13,921 nt of DNA from Candidatus Poribacteria bacterium (lineage in GTDB: Bacteria > Abyssobacteria > SURF-5): the NCBI GenBank assembly GCA_016215705.1, contig JACRIR010000042.1, forward strand, positions 1 to 13,921, given 5' to 3'. Positions 4,186 to 12,404 of this stretch are shown in pieces. The notes under the pieces are model-generated. The model did not search any database. It saw nothing but the letters and a program-made list of their open reading frames with translations, and had not been told where the DNA came from. The number at the start of each line of letters is the position of its first letter. The first letter of the stretch is position 1. The position numbers were made by a program, and so were the translations under genes.

Positions 4186-4644
4186 ATGGAAACGAATAAC
4201 AGCCAAAACGGCGAGCCTCTTTTTAACCGTATCGACCAGGTTGGCGTCGTGGTCAAGGACGTGGACGAACGCGTTAGGAACTATGAAACAATCTTCGGCG
4301 AAGGGGCCTTTGTGATCGTTGAAGGGGAGGGACAGGCTACTCTCGCCGACGGGCGCGGAATAATGATCAAAGGGAAATTGGCCTTTGTGCAACTCGGGCC
4401 GGTGCAGGTGGAACTGATAGAAATCAAGGACGGCCCCTCCATCCATGTGGATTTCCTGAAGACCCACGGCGAGGGGATACACCACGTCGCGAAGTATGTT
4501 GAAGACTTCGACAAAGAATTGCAGAAGTTTCGCGAGCGCGGCATTAGGGTGCTCCAACAGGGCAGCGGAATGCGTCGCTACGCATATCTGGATACAAAAC
4601 CGTTCATATTAGAACTTATAGAGGGCCAACCTATGAACAAATGA
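4186..4644 (+). CDS. VOC-superfamily protein, methylmalonyl-CoA-epimerase-like
   Basis: The ATG at 4186 is preceded by AAAGGA at 6-base spacing, which decides the start; upstream in-frame codons have no such support. The 152-residue product has two beta-alpha-beta-beta-beta modules typical of glyoxalase/bleomycin-resistance/epimerase folds: IDQVGVVVKDVDERVRNYETIFG at 16-38 and GIHHVAKYVEDFDKEL at 97-112. Candidate metal ligands by analogy with methylmalonyl-CoA epimerase are Gln18 (His in classical epimerases), Gln74 or Glu76 in VQVELIE, His99 or His100, and Glu143 in ILELIE. Members act on CoA esters, glutathione adducts or aromatic diols; the IDQVGVVV start is close to an epimerase-like subgroup. 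The gene has its own promoter and is separated from the next operon by 157 bp. The substrate is not established. Confidence 0.8.
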   Translation: METNNSQNGEPLFNRIDQVGVVVKDVDERVRNYETIFGEGAFVIVEGEGQATLADGRGIMIKGKLAFVQLGPVQVELIEIKDGPSIHVDFLKTHGEGIHHVAKYVEDFDKELQKFRERGIRVLQQGSGMRRYAYLDTKPFILELIEGQPMNK

Positions 4645-4801: not shown

Positions 4802-5665
4802 ATGAACTTCAAGCTCTACGACAATCCGACAACCTTCTACAGAAACTTTCTTGCCCGGTTCTTCGACAATATCTACGAATCACTGAGCTTCTATGATTTC
4901 CTTGGAAGGGCTTCGGACACGCCTTTGGTCGGGCCGCTGTTGAAACCGTTCCTGGGGCTTTATGCTGAACGACTCCATGCCGCGGCGCTGCCGCTGCCAC
5001 TCCCCGAGATCATCAAACTGATTAATCAGGCGAAAGTGATTGCCGTGGATGAATGTGTGTGCCGCAACCTTTGGCACAACTGCGACCGGGAGCGAAGCAC
5101 ATGTTTCAAGATAAATACGTCCGCCGAAGCCTATGCTGCGGGACATGCGAACAGCTTGATAACGAAGGAAGAGGCGATAAGGATTGTTCAGAAGGCGGCA
5201 CAGCAGGGATTGGTCACGCAACTCGAGAGTTGCATGCCGCCGTATAATTATTCCATCTGTTGCTGCTGCCGGTGCTGCTGCGTAGCCATGCGCTTGCGCT
5301 ATGACCACGGAATCTACAACGCAATGAAATCCGGTTATTATGTTCCCGAGTTCGACCAGAGCAAATGCACTGAGTGCGGGACATGTGTCGTCATATGTCC
5401 ACCGAAAGCGCTCAAGGCCGGTTCAATGCCTGAAGTCGATACGCCGACTTGCCTCGGCTGTGGCCTCTGCGCCGAGCATTGTCCGTCCGGCGCGATCACT
5501 ATGGCAAACAAAAGGCAGGTTGAGCGAATCGAGGAGCGGCCAAATCCTGTCGAGTGGATTGCCCTCTGGGCTTATGTGCTCGGTTTCATGATTCCCGCCG
5601 TGGTCGTGTACTCGTTTTTCACAGGTCGAAAGACGAAACAGCTAGGCAAACTGGCAAAGCGATGA
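4802..5665 (+). CDS. Membrane-anchored cysteine-rich dicluster ferredoxin (first gene of the operon)
   Basis: This 287-residue protein carries 23 Cys. A first module has C85-V-C87-R with C94 and C101, then C144 and a remarkable run SICCCCRCCC at 151-160 (C153-156, C158-160). Two classical [4Fe-4S] motifs follow: CxxCxxCxxxCP at 189-200 and 217-228. A single membrane helix lies at about 251-273 (EWIALWAYVLGFMIPAVVVYSFF), followed by a basic tail, so the clusters are probably tethered to the membrane with the tail in the cytoplasm. It is paralogous to the genes at 5850, 9155 and 10568 but lacks their winged-helix region; its first 70 residues are different and aromatic-rich. AAGG lies 9 bases before the ATG, and the promoter and operator are just upstream. 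The likely role is electron transfer between the membrane and the molybdopterin enzyme. The metal bound by the extra cysteines is unknown. Confidence 0.85.
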   Translation: MNFKLYDNPTTFYRNFLARFFDNIYESLSFYDFLGRASDTPLVGPLLKPFLGLYAERLHAAALPLPLPEIIKLINQAKVIAVDECVCRNLWHNCDRERSTCFKINTSAEAYAAGHANSLITKEEAIRIVQKAAQQGLVTQLESCMPPYNYSICCCCRCCCVAMRLRYDHGIYNAMKSGYYVPEFDQSKCTECGTCVVICPPKALKAGSMPEVDTPTCLGCGLCAEHCPSGAITMANKRQVERIEERPNPVEWIALWAYVLGFMIPAVVVYSFFTGRKTKQLGKLAKR

Positions 5666-5849
5666 CTTTCTTTTTTCCCTTTTCACCAAAGGAGGATAAA
5701 GGGAGTTTGTGCGGATCAGGTCCCAAAACTTACACATGACACGAGATGCTCAGTACCTACTAGGAGAAAGACAGAAAGGTTTTCCTTGATGATGTTCCCT
5801 TTCGCCTTGTTCCTTTCGCCTTTCGCCTGTTAATCAAAGGAGGACTAAC
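5666..5849 (+). other. Intergenic leader inside the operon with low-complexity CCTTTCGCC repeats
   Basis: This 184-bp gap holds a strong but apparently unused AAAGGAGG at 5688-5695. Three near-copies of CCTTTCGCC lie at 5796-5829, just before the real AAAGGAGG of the next gene. I find no terminator, so readthrough from the upstream promoter is expected. Confidence 0.5.
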
Positions 5850-6941
5850 ATGTCTCAGCAAACTATTTATGATCAACTGGCCGAATACCTCAATTCCATG
5901 CCTATAGGCGCGCCGAAGACTCCGGAACTAATTGAAATTTTGAAGACGCTTTACACCGAGGAAGAGGCCGCGCTCGCGGTCAAGCTCCCGTTCCTGCCTA
6001 TGACGCTCGACGCGCTTGCGGACCGGACCGGCATCGCAGAGGCCAAGTTGAAGCCGACAATCGAGAGAATGGCAAAGAAGGGCATCGTGTTCGTACAGCT
6101 TGGTGGTGACGAACCGATGTATCGGCTCCTGCCGACAGTCGTTGGCTTCAGCGAAACGCCGTTCTGGCCGGGCAAACGCACTCCACACACGGAAAAGCTC
6201 GCGGCCCTCTGGAGAAAATACGCGAAGGATGCCTTCTACCATGAGGTTGGCGGCATCTCCGATTTGCCGATGGTTCGTGTCATCCCCGTGCAGCAATCGC
6301 TCTCGGACGACCGCAAAGTCTCCGTCTACGAGAAGCTGGCTGAAAAAGTGAAAGAGACGTCATATCAGGCTGTGGCGCACTGCCCGTGCCGGATCATGCG
6401 CGACTATTCGGGCGAGGGAAAATGTGAACACTCGACTGAAAACTGCCTGCATTTCGGCAGCCTGGGCCAATATATGGTCGCCAACGGCATGGCTCGCGAG
6501 ATTACGGTTGACGAAACGCTGAATATCCTCAAGAAGTCGAATGAGGAAGGGCTCGTTCACATCACAGGAAACCATCAGGCCGAAATCGACACGATCTGCA
6601 ATTGCTGCGCAGACGCATGCATCTTCTTGACGGGACTACTCGCAATGGGCGAGAAGAACATGTTTGCGCGCTCGAACTTTGTATCGGAAATAAATCAGGA
6701 CACGTGCGCCGAATGTGGCACGTGCGCTGAAAGGTGTCCGGTCAAGGCCATCTCACTCGATGACGGGCCGGCCAAGGTAGACGCGGGCAAATGCATCGGG
6801 TGCGGAGTGTGTTATCCGACTTGCCCATCGGAATCGGTCTCGCTGGCCGCAAGGCCGCAATCTGAGCAGTTGCCGATTCTGCCCCCGGGCGAAATGGTCA
6901 TGAAAGTGATGAGCGACAAGAAACGCGAGTTCAAATTCTGA
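5850..6941 (+). CDS. Winged-helix/cysteine-rich dicluster ferredoxin protein, paralogue 2
   Basis: The start is fixed by AAAGGAGG 7 bases before the ATG. The 363-residue product has an N-terminal helical region, then a winged-helix-like segment at about 51-95 (MTLDALADRTGIAEAKLKP, IERMAKKGIVFVQLGGDEP, MYRLLP). The shared cysteine module is C178-P-C180-R, C192, C199, then CNCC at 250-253 with C257. Two [4Fe-4S] motifs follow: C286, C289, C292, C296-P and C315, C318, C321, C325-P. There is no signal peptide or membrane helix, so it is cytoplasmic. It is followed after 30 bp by the molybdopterin oxidoreductase, which suggests it serves as that enzyme's electron partner. The winged helix may bind DNA (redox sensing) or may be a protein-protein module; sequence alone does not decide. 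Family membership is clear, the specific function is not. Confidence 0.85.
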   Translation: MSQQTIYDQLAEYLNSMPIGAPKTPELIEILKTLYTEEEAALAVKLPFLPMTLDALADRTGIAEAKLKPTIERMAKKGIVFVQLGGDEPMYRLLPTVVGFSETPFWPGKRTPHTEKLAALWRKYAKDAFYHEVGGISDLPMVRVIPVQQSLSDDRKVSVYEKLAEKVKETSYQAVAHCPCRIMRDYSGEGKCEHSTENCLHFGSLGQYMVANGMAREITVDETLNILKKSNEEGLVHITGNHQAEIDTICNCCADACIFLTGLLAMGEKNMFARSNFVSEINQDTCAECGTCAERCPVKAISLDDGPAKVDAGKCIGCGVCYPTCPSESVSLAARPQSEQLPILPPGEMVMKVMSDKKREFKF

Positions 6942-6971
6942 TCCCTGCGAAATCCAAAGAGGAGAAAGAAT

Positions 6972-9143
6972 ATGAGTGACAACTGGAAATCCACAGCCTG
7001 CATAATGTGCGGAAACAATTGCGGCCTGGAGGTACAAGTCGAAGACGATCATATCGTCAAGGTTCGGGCCGACAAGAAGAACCCCTTCAGTAAGGGATAT
7101 GTCTGCAACAAATCGCTCGCGGTCGGCCGTTATCAGAACCACAATCAACGCGTGCTTTCGCCACTAAGGCGGCGAGTCGACGGAACATTCGACGAAACCG
7201 ACTGGGACACCGCCACAAGTGAAATCGCCACCAAGTTGAACAAGATTATCAATATCCACGGGGCCAAGAGCGTCGCTTTCATCGGCGGCGGTGGACAAGC
7301 GAACCACCTCGACGTGCCCTATGCAATGTTCTTCTTGAAGGCGCTCGGAACAAAATATCTCTACAATGCCCTGGCGCAGGAATACACGCAGAAATACTGG
7401 ATCAACGGCGAGATGTTCGGCAGTCAGAACATGGACTTCCATGCCGACGAGCATCGATGCGACGTGTTCCTCATCATCGGAAGCAATCCGTGGATGAGCC
7501 ACGGAATGCAGCGCGCGCGCCTGGTGATAGGGGAGATATCCAAAGACCCGAATCGCAAGCTCATCGTCGTAGACCCGCGCCGACATGAAACCGCTGAAAA
7601 GGCCGACATATATTTACAGATAAAGCCCACGACCGACACCTATTTTCTGCTGGCGCTCATCAACGTCATTGTGAAGGAAGGCTTGTGCAACAATGATTAC
7701 ATCGCCGGGAACACAACCGGCTGGGATGAAGTAAAATGGCTGGCTGAGCTTGTTACGCCCGAAAAAGCGGCCCAATTGTGCGATCTCAAGGCCGACCAAA
7801 TCCGTGAGGTGGCCCGCATCTTCGCAAAGGCGAAACGAGCTGCCACCCGGATTGACCTCGGAATCTATCACAACATACGGATGTTCGAGAACGTCTACCT
7901 CGAGCGCATCCTGCTTGCGATAACAGGAAATCTCGGCGTGCCCGGCGGCGTTGCGTTCCCGGAATCGTTCATGGCGCTCGATCTGCCCGAAGGTCCGGAA
8001 GAGAAATGGAAGACGCGCGTCGCTGGAATAGAGCAAATTCGCGGCATGTTCCCTCCCAACGCATTGCCCGAGGAAATACTGACACCGGGCGACGGCCGCA
8101 TCCGCGCCGTCGTGGTTGAGGGCTCGAATCCGCTCCGCTCATATGCGGACTCGAAAACGTTCGAGAAGGCATTCAAGGCTCTCGACCTGCTTGTGGTGAT
8201 TGATCCTGCCATGAGCGAGCCGGCGCGCCTTGCCCACTATGTGCTGCCGGCAAAGTGCGGATACGAGAAATTCGAAGCGTCTTTCTTCCCCAAAGGATTC
8301 CCTGGTATTTACTACCACTTGCGCCAACCTGTCGTCAAGGGGCCGAAGCTCGCAAAACAAGAATGCGAAATATTTACGCTGATCCTCGAAAAGATGGGTG
8401 TCGATCTCTCCGGATTGTTGCCCTACGCAATGCTGAAACAGGCGCAGCAGGAGAGTGACAAGCCTCCTGTCCTCTCGCTCGTAAAAGCGTTTTGCATGAT
8501 GTTCGCCATGAAACATCGCGAATCGCTGATAAAGAACGGCATTATCACGGGCGAAGGCGACGATACCTCGGAGCTTTTTGAGGCAATCCTTCGGCATCCT
8601 GAAGGGCTTTACCTTTGCGACACATTTGATGAGAACAATCTGGAGAACCTTAAGACTGAGGACAAGAAGATTCATCTGGCGATTCCCATGGTTCCGGATA
8701 TGCTCCGAAGATTGGCGATCCCCCAAAAAATCGACCTCGATGAGGGGTCGGAATATCCGTTTATTCTTCAGACGGGCGAGCGCACAAATTACACCGCTAA
8801 CACGATTCAACGCGATAGCGACTGGCGCTCAGCTCAACTGCCGACGAATTATCTGCGAATAAATCGCAAGGACGCTGAAAGGTTGGAAGTCTCTGAGGGA
8901 GAAACGGTGAAACTCGTCACCGATACATCCACCGTCTCGATTCCCGTGAAAGTCACGGACGATATTTACCCCGGAAATGTGTCTATTCCCCACGGGTTCG
9001 GGCTGCTGCACACGAACAAGAAGACGGGAAAACTTGAGCAAATCGGCGTGAACGTCAACGAGCTCATCTCGGCAGACCACCGGGATCAGTTCACCGGCAT
9101 CCCATTGCATAAATGCATTCCATGTAGAATTCAAAAACAATAG
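6972..9143 (+). CDS. Molybdopterin (Mo/W-bisPGD) oxidoreductase with N-terminal [4Fe-4S] cluster
   Basis: The ATG follows GAGGAG at 8-base spacing. This 723-residue protein is of the MopB/formate-dehydrogenase-like superfamily. The N-terminal [4Fe-4S] motif is C10-x2-C13-x3-C17-x27-C45. Cofactor-binding segments include FIGGGGQAN (103-111), LIIGSNPWMSHGMQRAR (about 167-183), VVDPRRHETAEKAD, VVVEGSNPLRSYAD, and the C-terminal dinucleotide-binding domain from about 590 (FILQTGERTNYTANTIQRDSDW to IPHGFG). At the position where acetylene hydratase and formate dehydrogenases place Cys or SeCys, the aligned residue appears to be Glu137 (NALAQEYTQKYW). There is no twin-arginine signal, so it is cytoplasmic. 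It sits between two cysteine-rich ferredoxins in the operon, which probably exchange its electrons. The substrate is unknown; an aldehyde, hydroxylation or hydration reaction cannot be told apart here. Confidence 0.92.
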   Translation: MSDNWKSTACIMCGNNCGLEVQVEDDHIVKVRADKKNPFSKGYVCNKSLAVGRYQNHNQRVLSPLRRRVDGTFDETDWDTATSEIATKLNKIINIHGAKSVAFIGGGGQANHLDVPYAMFFLKALGTKYLYNALAQEYTQKYWINGEMFGSQNMDFHADEHRCDVFLIIGSNPWMSHGMQRARLVIGEISKDPNRKLIVVDPRRHETAEKADIYLQIKPTTDTYFLLALINVIVKEGLCNNDYIAGNTTGWDEVKWLAELVTPEKAAQLCDLKADQIREVARIFAKAKRAATRIDLGIYHNIRMFENVYLERILLAITGNLGVPGGVAFPESFMALDLPEGPEEKWKTRVAGIEQIRGMFPPNALPEEILTPGDGRIRAVVVEGSNPLRSYADSKTFEKAFKALDLLVVIDPAMSEPARLAHYVLPAKCGYEKFEASFFPKGFPGIYYHLRQPVVKGPKLAKQECEIFTLILEKMGVDLSGLLPYAMLKQAQQESDKPPVLSLVKAFCMMFAMKHRESLIKNGIITGEGDDTSELFEAILRHPEGLYLCDTFDENNLENLKTEDKKIHLAIPMVPDMLRRLAIPQKIDLDEGSEYPFILQTGERTNYTANTIQRDSDWRSAQLPTNYLRINRKDAERLEVSEGETVKLVTDTSTVSIPVKVTDDIYPGNVSIPHGFGLLHTNKKTGKLEQIGVNVNELISADHRDQFTGIPLHKCIPCRIQKQ

Positions 9144-9154
9144 GAGGTTATCTC

Positions 9155-10240
9155 ATGAGTGGCAATGTCTATGAACGGCTGGCACAAAAACTCGACGCGC
9201 TTCCGAACGGATATCCTCGCACGAAGAGTGGAATCGAGGTGAGGGTCCTCAGGAAGATTTTCACTGAGGACGAGGCCGAAATAGCGTGCACATTGAAACT
9301 GATACCGGAAGCGCCGGAGCAGATAGCGGAACGCCTCACACGGGACCCGAAGGCCCTCGGAGAAATCCTCGAGAAAATGGTGGCTCAAGGCGAGATAGGG
9401 GGAGCGGGGCCGTTGGGCGCGCGCAGGTACCACGTGTTGCCGTTTGTCGTCGGTGTCTATGAGTTCCAACTCTCCCGCATGGATAAGGAACTTGCTGAAC
9501 TTATGGAAGAATATATCGCCGAAGGATTCCTGACCGGAGTAGGCAACAGCAGCCCGGCTTTCCTGCACACGATACCAATCGAACAGGCAGTTGATGCGCA
9601 ATTGGAGGTTCACCCGTTCGAAAGCGTCCGGCAACTGATGGACAAAGCAAAAGTATTTTGCACACACGACTGCATTTGCCGCAAGGAACAAGCTCTCATC
9701 GGGAAAGCATGTGACAAGCCGCAGGGGAATTGCATCTCGATGTCAATGGATGAGCATGCGTTTGATATCAATTACGGAGGCAAGATCGTGAACAGGAAAG
9801 AAGCGGAACGTATCATGAAGGAAGCCGAAGACGCGGGTCTTGTGCATGCCACCATGACAATTACCGACGAGACTTATCATTTCTGCAACTGTTGTGCGTG
9901 TTGTTGCGGGTTGCTGCGCGGCGTCAGCAAATTCAACGCGCCCGGAATGCTCGCCAAATCGAACTATTGGGCCTCAATTGACCCGGACACCTGCGCCGCA
10001 TGCGGAACGTGTGCGAATGATCGTTGTCCCATGGGAGCAATATCGGAGAAGGACGGTTCCTATGAGGTCGACCAAAAGCGTTGCATAGGCTGCGGTGTAT
10101 GCTCGCCGACGTGTCCCACGGAATCCATCTCGCTGGTGCGTAAGCCGGCTGACCAATGTATTCAGCCGCCCCCGAACATGGTCTCCTGGATGATGGAACG
10201 AAGCATGAACACCGGCAAGCCCCTGGACAAGTTTATGTAG
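9155..10240 (+). CDS. Winged-helix/cysteine-rich dicluster ferredoxin protein, paralogue 3
   Basis: Only 11 bp separate this gene from the molybdopterin gene, and its ribosome site (TAGGAGG) overlaps that gene's stop, so the two are translationally close. The 361-residue product has the same plan as the gene at 5850. A winged-helix-like region lies at about 50-100. The module has C169, C173-I-C175-R, C186 and C193, then CNCCACCC at 244-251 with six Cys. Two [4Fe-4S] motifs follow at 280-291 and 310-320. The first is CxxCxxCxxxxC, one residue longer than canonical before the last Cys, as found in some cluster variants. No signal peptide or membrane helix is seen. It ends the operon, with its stop running into a G-rich hairpin. 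It probably relays electrons to or from the molybdopterin enzyme. Confidence 0.85.
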   Translation: MSGNVYERLAQKLDALPNGYPRTKSGIEVRVLRKIFTEDEAEIACTLKLIPEAPEQIAERLTRDPKALGEILEKMVAQGEIGGAGPLGARRYHVLPFVVGVYEFQLSRMDKELAELMEEYIAEGFLTGVGNSSPAFLHTIPIEQAVDAQLEVHPFESVRQLMDKAKVFCTHDCICRKEQALIGKACDKPQGNCISMSMDEHAFDINYGGKIVNRKEAERIMKEAEDAGLVHATMTITDETYHFCNCCACCCGLLRGVSKFNAPGMLAKSNYWASIDPDTCAACGTCANDRCPMGAISEKDGSYEVDQKRCIGCGVCSPTCPTESISLVRKPADQCIQPPPNMVSWMMERSMNTGKPLDKFM

Positions 10241-10264
10241 GGGGGAGACCTTGCTTCCCCCTTT
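10240..10264 (+). terminator. G/C-rich hairpin right after the operon stop
   Basis: GGGGGAG at 10241-10247 pairs with CTTCCCCC at 10254-10261 (7 bp with one G-T pair, 7-nt loop), followed only by TTT. It is a weak terminator candidate on its own; the second hairpin at 10316-10339 backs it up. Confidence 0.45.
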
Positions 10265-10315
10265 GGTAAAGAGGAATTGACGGGGATTTGTTCTTCAAAT
10301 ATGGACTGTACAACA

Positions 10316-10339
10316 AAAGGGGCCACGTGTGGCCCCTTT
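10316..10339. terminator. Bidirectional terminator between convergent genes
   Basis: AAAGGGGCCAC and GTGGCCCCTTT form a perfect 11-bp inverted repeat around GT. On the minus strand the stem is followed by TTTTGTTGT, and on the plus strand by TTTGCTTCTT. It lies between the converging genes ending at 10240 and 10568. Confidence 0.7.
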
Positions 10340-10350
10340 GCTTCTTGTGA

Positions 10351-10469
10351 GGGCGACCCACCGGGTCGCCCCTACGCTAACCTGAACCTTGAAACGGCAT
10401 CATGGAAAACAAGCCGGTCAAGACATCGCGACCACCGGGTCGCCCCTATGCGAACCTGAACCTTGGAAC
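10351..10469. repeat. Two direct copies of a palindromic GGGCGACC..GGTCGCCC repeat
   Basis: Copy one (10351-10395) has GGGCGACCC-ACC-GGGTCGCCC, a perfect 9-bp hairpin, followed by CTACGCTAACCTGAACCTTGAAAC. Copy two (10429-10469) repeats the right part with a few changes (CTATGCGAACCTGAACCTTGGAAC). The offset is about 75 bp. The outline matches the terminator stem at 2479-2506. These appear to be dispersed palindromic intergenic repeats. Confidence 0.7.
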
Positions 10470-10527
10470 CTCAATAATAAGATACCCCCCACGTCAATAG
10501 GCTCCCCTCGGTCGCACTTCAATAAGC

Positions 10528-10551
10528 TACCCCCCTTTGCAAAGGGGGGTA
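10528..10551. repeat. 24-bp perfect palindrome with six-C/six-G arms
   Basis: TACCCCCCTTTGC followed by AAAGGGGGGTA forms a perfect palindrome 17 bp past the stop of the minus-strand ferredoxin gene, followed by a further AGGGGGGATT. Without a T tract on the minus side it is not a classical terminator. It resembles the C-run/G-run intergenic repeats common in some anaerobe genomes. Confidence 0.6.
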
Positions 10552-10567
10552 GGGGGGATTTGGTGGC

Positions 10568-11569
10568 CTACGGCGCCTTCGGAATAAACTCTACCGGTCT
10601 CACCTCGTCGAAATGTATCGCCTCCGACGGACAGACGATGCTGCACAGCCCGCAGCCAACGCACTTCTCGCCGTCTACCACGGCCTTCGGCTCATCTTTG
10701 CCATTTGTGACGCTTATCGCGCTGAAATAGCATCGGTCAACGCATGACTCGCAGCCGACGCACGCATCCTCATCAACGACCGCCTGAAACCTTGAAGGCG
10801 ACACGAACTTTGTTCCTTGCGAGATCATGTACCTCAGTCCGATACAGCAGTCAGAGCAACAATTGCAGATATAGTGGTCGATGTGGTCGGTGTTCATCGT
10901 GACGTGGACAAGGCCTGCTTCTTCTGCCTTGCGTATGATGTCCATAGCCTCTTTCTTGTCGATCTCCCTGCCTGTGCCGCGCGTGATGGCGTAATCGGCC
11001 GCTCTGTTAATCTGGATACAGACCTCGACCGGCAATCCGCATTTACCGTCCACAACGCGGCATGTACACTTCGTGACGGCTATCCTCTTCGCGCTTTCGA
11101 CGATCTCCTTGACGTTTTCATAGTGCAGTATCTGGTTCTTCGCGTCGAGCGCGGCCGCCACCGGAATAATCCGTGTGGGCGGACCGGGCAGCATTGATTC
11201 GATGATCTTTACGGTTGGCCCCCATTCCTTATCCGTAAACTCCTTCCAGAGGTTATGGAATTCCTTTGGCGCTTCCGGCCACAATATTGTGGCGTCATGG
11301 AATTGAACGATGTCGCGGCACATGCGATACTTGCCCGAGTTGCCTGAGACAAAGGCCAATCCCTTGTGGAACAAGAGGTCGAGTGATTTCTTGACGTCAT
11401 CTGCTGAACGACCTGTGGCAGCGGCAAGATCATCCGCTGTCCCCGGCATCGCCAGAAGCAACTTAGCCTCCTTCTCGTCCGCCACCATACTGAAGAGGCG
11501 TTTGATGGTTTCGGAATGCCCCATCATCAGCTTATCGGCCAGTTCCTGATACACATTTGTCTCGCTCAT
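10568..11569 (-). CDS. Winged-helix/cysteine-rich dicluster ferredoxin protein, paralogue 4
   Basis: This gene is convergent with the operon. The ATG at 11569 follows AGGAGAGG closely. The 333-residue product has a winged-helix-like region at about 44-85 (TADDLAAATGRSADDVKKSL, LLFHKGLAFVSGNSGKYRM). The shared module is C168-T-C170-R, C177, C184, then CNCC at 235-238 with C241 and C242. The [4Fe-4S] motifs are C270, C273, C276, C280 and C303, C306, C309, C313-P. The first motif ends CYFSAI, so the usual Pro after the fourth Cys is Tyr, which may shift the cluster's potential. It is predicted cytoplasmic. It is the fourth family member in 7 kb but in a separate transcription unit, suggesting either an alternative electron partner or a protein for another enzyme. 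The nearest minus-strand neighbour upstream is the DUF116 gene. Confidence 0.85.
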   Translation of the reverse strand: MSETNVYQELADKLMMGHSETIKRLFSMVADEKEAKLLLAMPGTADDLAAATGRSADDVKKSLDLLFHKGLAFVSGNSGKYRMCRDIVQFHDATILWPEAPKEFHNLWKEFTDKEWGPTVKIIESMLPGPPTRIIPVAAALDAKNQILHYENVKEIVESAKRIAVTKCTCRVVDGKCGLPVEVCIQINRAADYAITRGTGREIDKKEAMDIIRKAEEAGLVHVTMNTDHIDHYICNCCSDCCIGLRYMISQGTKFVSPSRFQAVVDEDACVGCESCVDRCYFSAISVTNGKDEPKAVVDGEKCVGCGLCSIVCPSEAIHFDEVRPVEFIPKAP

Positions 11570-11780: not shown

Positions 11781-12404
11781 CTAATCATTCTTCGTCGATT
11801 TTTCCTTTTCCCCTTTTAATCGTTTCCCCGTTTCCGCCATTTCTGGCTTCCCATTGATAAGCATTGCGAGGGCTTCCTCGATGCGATCTAAACTTACGAC
11901 CGTGTTCTTGCAGGGCCCGTTCGGACGCTCATTAAGAATACCCCATAGCGGCAGCGGCATTGCCTCGCGAATGCCTGAGATCATATCTCTTTCGCAGGCG
12001 ACCGCAATTACGAAAGCCGGCCTGCGGTCATACACCGCCCTTCGCGCGGCCGAGCCGCCACCTACTACGCGCATTGAGACCTTGTATCTGTCGCCGATTT
12101 CTATGAGCTTCGGCATACTGCATTTCCCGCAGGCTTTGCAATTGTGAATGTCGGCGTTCAGACGATGCGGGCATTCCCAATCTTGCAGACAATGCGGGAA
12201 TACGAGCAGGACATCTCCCGGCTTGTATTTCTTTTGGGAACCCGCGATAAAACGATTGTTTCTCCCAATGAAACGATCGTCAATCCTTTCCCCTTCCATT
12301 CCCATCATAGTGCCGACCGTTCTGAAAATGGGGTAGAGGAAGTTCATCAGAAAGTTTCGTTTGCCCGATGTTTCATCGCCCGGAAGTTTCGGTTTCTTAG
12401 CCAT
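11781..12404 (-). CDS. DUF116 family protein
   Basis: This 207-residue protein contains the hallmark DUF116 pattern: FPHCLQDWECP (69-79), NCKACGKCSMPKL (88-100), a GGGSAARRA segment, VIAVACERDMISGI (132-145) and WGILNERPNGPCKNT (154-168). Conserved cysteines are C72, C78, C89, C92, C95, C137 and C165, which suggests metal or Fe-S binding, though no function is established for the family. The N-terminus has a hydrophobic patch (FLMNFLYPIFRTVGTMMGM) that may associate with membrane; the C-terminus is Lys/Glu-rich. The start at 12404 has only a weak upstream GGGATG. It lies 211 bp upstream of the fourth cysteine-rich ferredoxin on the same strand, so co-expression is possible, although a large hairpin lies between. 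Confidence 0.88.
   Translation of the reverse strand: MAKKPKLPGDETSGKRNFLMNFLYPIFRTVGTMMGMEGERIDDRFIGRNNRFIAGSQKKYKPGDVLLVFPHCLQDWECPHRLNADIHNCKACGKCSMPKLIEIGDRYKVSMRVVGGGSAARRAVYDRRPAFVIAVACERDMISGIREAMPLPLWGILNERPNGPCKNTVVSLDRIEEALAMLINGKPEMAETGKRLKGEKEKSTKND

Follow-up and report, generated by a model that had tools for sequence, protein, structure and literature searches.

The window analysed here is one whole contig (C96) of 13,921 bases from the 5.47 Mb draft genome of a Candidatus Poribacteria bacterium. It carries four genes for cysteine-rich iron-sulfur proteins of a single family together with a gene for a molybdopterin (MopB) oxidoreductase, an enzyme using molybdenum or tungsten (Table 1). 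The preliminary description of this DNA held that the four open reading frames (ORFs) share an ordered cysteine plan. All four are present, and none of 20,000 shuffles of each of the four proteins reproduced the plan, which consists of 16 cysteines: CxC(R)...C...C, then CxCC...C, and then two [4Fe-4S] ferredoxin sites. Judged by their sequences, the four products are genuine paralogues.

Table 1. Genes of the family, the MopB gene and the DUF116 gene in the window
Position	Strand	Length (amino acids)	Feature	Basis
4802-5665	+	287	Short family member: eight-Cys module, two [4Fe-4S] ferredoxin sites and C-terminal hydrophobic helix, without winged helix	ORF, Fer4 matches, Cys plan at amino acids 85-199
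5850-6941	+	363	Family member: winged helix, eight-Cys module and 2x[4Fe-4S] ferredoxin domain	ORF, Pfam, alignment, Foldseek
6972-9143	+	723	Cytoplasmic-type MopB (molybdopterin) oxidoreductase, FdhA-like	Pfam Molybdopterin, Molydop_binding and Molybdop_Fe4S4; alignments to 7qv7 and 9t1s; clade alignment
9155-10240	+	361	Family member: winged helix, eight-Cys module and 2x[4Fe-4S] ferredoxin domain	ORF, Pfam, alignment
10568-11569	-	333	Family member from a different sub-clade, facing the MopB genes	ORF, Pfam, alignment, tree
11781-12404	-		DUF116 protein, on the same strand as and upstream of the 10568-11569 gene	Pfam DUF116, 2.3e-45

The analysis took in over 100 sequences of the family. 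Numbered after the 5850-6941 product, the module cysteines C178, C180, C192, C199, C250, C252, C253 and C257 are invariant across 14 full-length members, as are the eight ferredoxin cysteines. In 72 members from many genomes, the module cysteines are 99-100% conserved and the two CxxCxxCxxxC motifs of the Fer4 domain, likewise invariant in the 14, are 100% conserved. The ferredoxin part is ordinary: each of the four window proteins exceeds the Pfam gathering score for Fer4, the whole-family profile reaches PDB polyferredoxins via this part alone, and the C-terminal ~60 residues, with both CxxCxxCxxxC sites, resemble bacterial 2[4Fe-4S] ferredoxin domains (Fer4, Fer4_21, Fer4_7; HdrA, RnfB, FwdF, MvhB). 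In contrast, the upstream ~270 residues with the eight further cysteines match none of these families. Searches of Pfam and NCBIfam with the four window proteins at full length and with 20 diverse sequences of the module returned only Fer4-type or single chance matches, and the module profile found no match among PDB sequences (best E 0.39, to unrelated Sel1 repeats). The earlier view that the upstream cysteine module is a domain without a name is thus upheld for Pfam, NCBIfam and PDB sequences, and the whole proteins fall into no characterised Pfam or NCBIfam family, with matches confined to the Fer4 part.

The module had also been suggested to bind an extra cluster, and we consider such an additional Fe-S site plausible because conservation of the module is strict and both of its halves appear to behave as one unit. 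In a divergent short branch of the CExP type (L014, L370, L372, L373, L375/L077, L382/L050), C192 is missing and C253 is replaced by Glu, always together, and C178, C180, C199, C250, C252 and C257 are kept. Both C192 and C253 are retained in every other complete row of the alignment save the Subdoligranulum fusion protein described below, where C253 alone is changed. This joint loss suggests that the two residues belong to one site and that the halves of the module are linked. In addition to the two ferredoxin clusters, one or two Fe-S clusters probably sit in the module. Cysteine quartets can also bind zinc, and the module might instead bind such a structural metal or form disulfides, with the two ferredoxin clusters alone carrying electrons. 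We regard this alternative as unlikely: the predicted models, which give no confident fold or cluster geometry, leave room for it, but the near-absolute conservation of the eight cysteines across phyla alongside the ferredoxin part, in cytoplasmic proteins of strict anaerobes, favours Fe-S clusters over disulfides. In one family member (L044, in G008), C199 is missing together with some 10 residues around it, in the region that links the CxC and CxCC halves, through either a sequence error or a true loss.

The family extends far beyond this locus. Three genomes of the host phylum were compared, that is, the host and two related genomes (G001 and G002). The family profile has 14 matches in the host genome (E<=1e-20) and 17 and 11 in the related ones. 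Strong matches (E<=1e-30) are present in 123 of 247 Desulfobacterota genomes, and some lineages carry 8-17 of them per genome; copy numbers from the Desulfobacterota survey, in which up to eight candidates were scored per genome, are lower bounds. Full-length relatives were found in Cetobacterium and Acetoanaerobium, and a fused form in Subdoligranulum. Our search of the openly licensed literature found no description of the family, although it may have been described elsewhere. The proteins belong to a large family of iron-sulfur proteins, widespread and without a name, whose members are probably electron carriers in bacteria that avoid oxygen. A contig scan, for which the query patterns were poorly conserved and which returned one locus, gave as the one named relative a Syntrophobacteria metagenome-assembled genome, with 72% identity to the 5850-6941 product; scans of viral contigs revealed no relative.

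Most family copies are solitary and lie beside unrelated genes. The close co-directional neighbours are mixed, including phosphoglycerate mutase, a tRNA synthetase, thiolase, an ABC transporter, TetR, an oxidoreductase dependent on flavin mononucleotide (FMN) and others, and the search for one fixed operon partner yielded none. Where a theme can be discerned, it is redox: the neighbours include ferredoxin-nitroreductases, an old yellow enzyme-like flavoprotein and an FMN reductase accompanied by SCP2, and an Fe-S aldo/keto reductase adjoins family members in G031. In that genome, one 14 kb stretch (L361, on contig C364) holds at least six family genes by the Fe-S aldo/keto reductase, including short forms without the winged helix.

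The strongest clue to the role of the family is its physical joining to a flavoprotein. In Subdoligranulum, an ORF of 925 amino acids (L073:7830-10607) fuses the winged helix, the module and the ferredoxin site to Fer4_20, Pyr_redox_2 and Fer4, a layout of the GltD/dihydropyrimidine dehydrogenase electron-transfer type. The likeness to flavoproteins of the GltD, NfnB and dihydropyrimidine dehydrogenase group (Fer4_20 plus Pyr_redox_2) thus consists in an N-terminal family member fused to one of them in gut clostridia, whereas the window proteins contain no flavin or nucleotide domain. Fusion-like genes were detected by tblastn in five more gut contigs (50-79% identity). Genes of this kind occur in "bacteriophage" records (MT835711, MT835522, MT835472 and others), which are human faecal contigs without annotation and look like bacterial DNA. 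In a different open frame, of 861 amino acids (L105:1-2586, in G113), a family member is continuous with an AMP-dependent acyl ligase. We did not accept it as a proven fusion, given that it occurs in one genome, that a close relative in G040 is separate and that a stop codon might have been missed.

How closely the family is tied to the MopB gene is a separate question. In the preliminary description, three family genes flanked the MopB gene in one operon and the fourth faced it. For two of them, the arrangement is tight: 31 bp separate the 5850-6941 gene from the MopB gene, and 12 bp separate the latter from the 9155-10240 gene. The 4802-5665 gene lies 185 bp upstream of the 5850-6941 gene, with which it only likely shares a transcript. 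The fourth gene is indeed convergent but does not appear to be part of the MopB system. We set it apart because of its orientation, because it belongs to another sub-clade and because its orthologue in G001 stands by a DUF116 gene without a MopB gene there. Together with the upstream DUF116 gene, whose G001 counterpart (L080, 9251-9835) is 63% identical, it probably makes up a unit of its own. Orthologues of the 5850-6941 gene adjoin the same MopB gene in G001 (84% identity) and G002 (78.5%), and an orthologue of the 4802-5665 gene with the same adjoining genes is found in G002 (L078, 78%). The MopB gene next to family genes in these two related genomes is 75-80% identical to that of the host and gene orders differ; family genes lie beside a MopB gene of this clade in all three host-phylum genomes.

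Outside the host phylum, the MopB clade is represented in 44 of the 247 Desulfobacterota genomes. The family occurs in 41 of these 44, compared with 82 of the 203 MopB-negative genomes (Fisher p 2e-11, a value that ignores phylogeny and genome size). With a distance of 6 kb as the criterion for pairing, a family gene is present at 5 of 17 Desulfobacterota MopB-clade loci, in three of the five directly upstream and on the same strand, compared with about 0.5 of the 17 loci expected from copy number by our estimate (17 x 13.4 kb x ~8 copies in ~4 Mb). Conversely, none of the 40 family loci sampled outside the window has a MopB gene within 6 kb, nor was a MopB gene found near the eight other family loci of the host that we examined. 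The regular genomic linkage expected of a dedicated MopB electron-transfer subunit is thus absent from both samples (0 of 40; 5 of 17). The MopB-adjacent members are spread over several sub-clades of the family tree, requiring 12 changes, so the pairing either arose more than once or has often been lost. The association between the family and the MopB genes is real, recurrent but optional. The absence of MopB genes from the 40 sampled loci rules out a MopB-specific system, and the earlier notion of a system built around one MopB enzyme is not supported, given also that the family is mostly solitary, has 14 matches in the host and is widely distributed in Desulfobacterota.

The MopB enzyme itself departs from its closest relatives. 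Its product matches PF00384, PF01568 and PF04879 above the cut-off and accordingly belongs to the MopB/DMSO reductase superfamily. Among characterised proteins, the closest to it are formate dehydrogenase alpha (TIGR01591) and FdhF of HDCR (7qv7 chain S, 1.9e-53), with which it shares the N-terminal [4Fe-4S] motif; however, it scores 277.6 bits against TIGR01591, far under the curated cut-off of 666. In ungapped alignment to 7qv7 (HDCR FdhF) and 9t1s (F420-linked FdhA), Glu137 takes the position of the selenocysteine (Sec) or Cys metal ligand and Tyr138 that of the catalytic His. The RGQNNVQG motif with the substrate Arg is absent across the aligned MopB clade, whereas the true formate dehydrogenase of the host (L294) keeps both Cys-His and this motif. 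Glu137, Tyr138 and the missing motif rule out a formate dehydrogenase.

The Glu is kept in essentially every aligned member of the clade. Glu-Tyr, or Glu followed by another residue, stands at the Sec/Cys-His position in Desulfobacterota members and in two further host MopB genes (C228, C81). The superfamily ligand table in PMC10100899 lists Sec, Cys, Ser, Asp or none, and Glu is not among the entries of that table. By alignment, Glu137 is a candidate metal ligand that may replace Sec/Cys, and the clade is possibly an undescribed enzyme class. Lacking the usual ligand and catalytic residues, these enzymes may catalyse an undescribed reaction.

A polyferredoxin-like gene adjoining a MopB catalytic subunit is reminiscent of the subunits that transfer electrons in formate dehydrogenases and in HDCR (FdhB, HycB-type). 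However, HycB-type subunits contain four ferredoxin-type clusters in another plan, without a winged helix or an eight-Cys module, and the library scan gave no full-length match of the window proteins to FdhB/HycB-type subunit models.

Three of the four products had been noted to possess a winged-helix-like N-terminus, and our results agree with this. The Pfam TrmB model matches two of them weakly, below the cut-off (E 0.02-0.04). AlphaFold was run with the sequences of the four window proteins and one related locus; the Foldseek neighbours of the full-length model (mean pLDDT, the predicted local distance difference test, of 49) are mostly TrmBL2, MarR and ArsR (best E 9e-4, probability mostly 0.9-1.0). 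The N-terminal region is therefore likely, on the strength of these models, to be a winged helix. For the model of the module and ferredoxin part (mean pLDDT 55), the best Foldseek match (E 0.07) falls on the ferredoxin part and the best VIA hits are winged-helix proteins (Z 2.4). The family would thus resemble TrmB/MarR/ArsR regulators in its predicted N-terminal fold but differs from them in its acidic domain and recognition helix and in the attached Fe-S domains.

This predicted fold underlies the main rival explanation, namely that the family consists of redox- or Fe-S-sensing transcription regulators, in which the winged helix would bind DNA, the Cys module and ferredoxin would sense the redox state, and each paralogue would control its neighbours. 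The numerous paralogues per genome, mostly solitary and with unrelated neighbours, would suit such a role. Across 70 members, however, the winged-helix domain averages -2.3 in net charge, and in the columns of the recognition helix, where a basic, DNA-contacting helix was sought, Glu and Asp predominate; DNA binding appears less likely because both the domain and its recognition helix are acidic. Moreover, at several loci a TetR or MarR gene lies upstream of the family gene, so a regulator is already present there; short members including the 4802-5665 product keep the module and ferredoxin without the winged helix; and a member fused with an NAD(P)H flavoprotein fits electron transfer better. 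On balance, regulation seems improbable.

We therefore favour, with reasonable though limited confidence, the interpretation that the four proteins are generic iron-sulfur electron-transfer adaptors recruited here by the MopB enzyme. Electron transfer is supported by the two [4Fe-4S] sites in every complete member, the eight further conserved cysteines, the flavoprotein fusion and the redox neighbours. A full-length member would comprise a winged helix that serves docking or structure, then the eight-Cys module with one or two clusters, and then the two-cluster ferredoxin domain, and single electrons would pass between diverse cytoplasmic oxidoreductases and the pool of ferredoxin or NAD(P)H. 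At this locus, the 5850-6941 and 9155-10240 products probably serve the MopB enzyme as electron-transfer partners in the manner of HycB- or FdhB-type subunits. The hydropathy of the 4802-5665 product peaks at 1.96 at amino acid 253, in a hydrophobic C-terminal stretch that gives way to a basic tail; this helix probably anchors the protein in the membrane, where it could connect to electron carriers, whereas the other proteins are most likely soluble.

A further alternative is very unlikely, namely that the proteins act as reductive activators or in maturation, supplying low-potential electrons for the reactivation or assembly of enzymes that depend on a metal, corrinoid or molybdopterin. Multi-cluster proteins do act as activators elsewhere, e.g. 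RamA-type activases, and a HypB/CobW-type GTPase, the MopB enzyme and, by visual judgement, a B12-binding-type protein (L037) are encoded near family genes, but the family has no ATPase or other activator domain and the HypB/CobW- and B12-type neighbours occur in single loci only.

Several points weigh against the interpretation of the family as electron-transfer adaptors. No recurrent neighbour accompanies most family genes, so no partner enzyme is fixed, and the co-occurrence statistic with MopB carries the qualification given with it. C192 and C253 may have been lost once, in a common ancestor, and the change then inherited. The predicted models are too poor to place the cysteines, winged helices serve DNA binding more often than docking, and a search of the openly licensed literature for biochemistry on any family member found none. 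A more ambitious proposal can be offered only tentatively: that the module is a new Fe-S-binding domain, unusual in having the CxC and CxCC halves in one site, and that the family represents modular electron hubs, reaching up to 17 or more copies per genome in Desulfobacterota and relatives, which here feed a MopB class with Glu at the metal-ligand position.

Anaerobes that oxidise fatty acids or aromatics rely on the routing of electrons released by numerous acyl-CoA and redox enzymes, for which a good part of the carriers is still to be found. With its many copies, its conserved, unnamed Cys domain and the flavoprotein fusion, the family is a good place to look for them.

The remainder of the contig contains other genes. 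Two ORFs occupy positions 1-2460, encoding proteins of 409 amino acids (cut by the contig end) and 393 amino acids, the latter without a Pfam match. Upstream of the cluster, at 4186-4644, lies a glyoxalase/methylmalonyl-CoA epimerase-like gene, whose 71%-identical counterpart in G002 (L083:15027-15476) is located a few kb from a three-gene array of the family.

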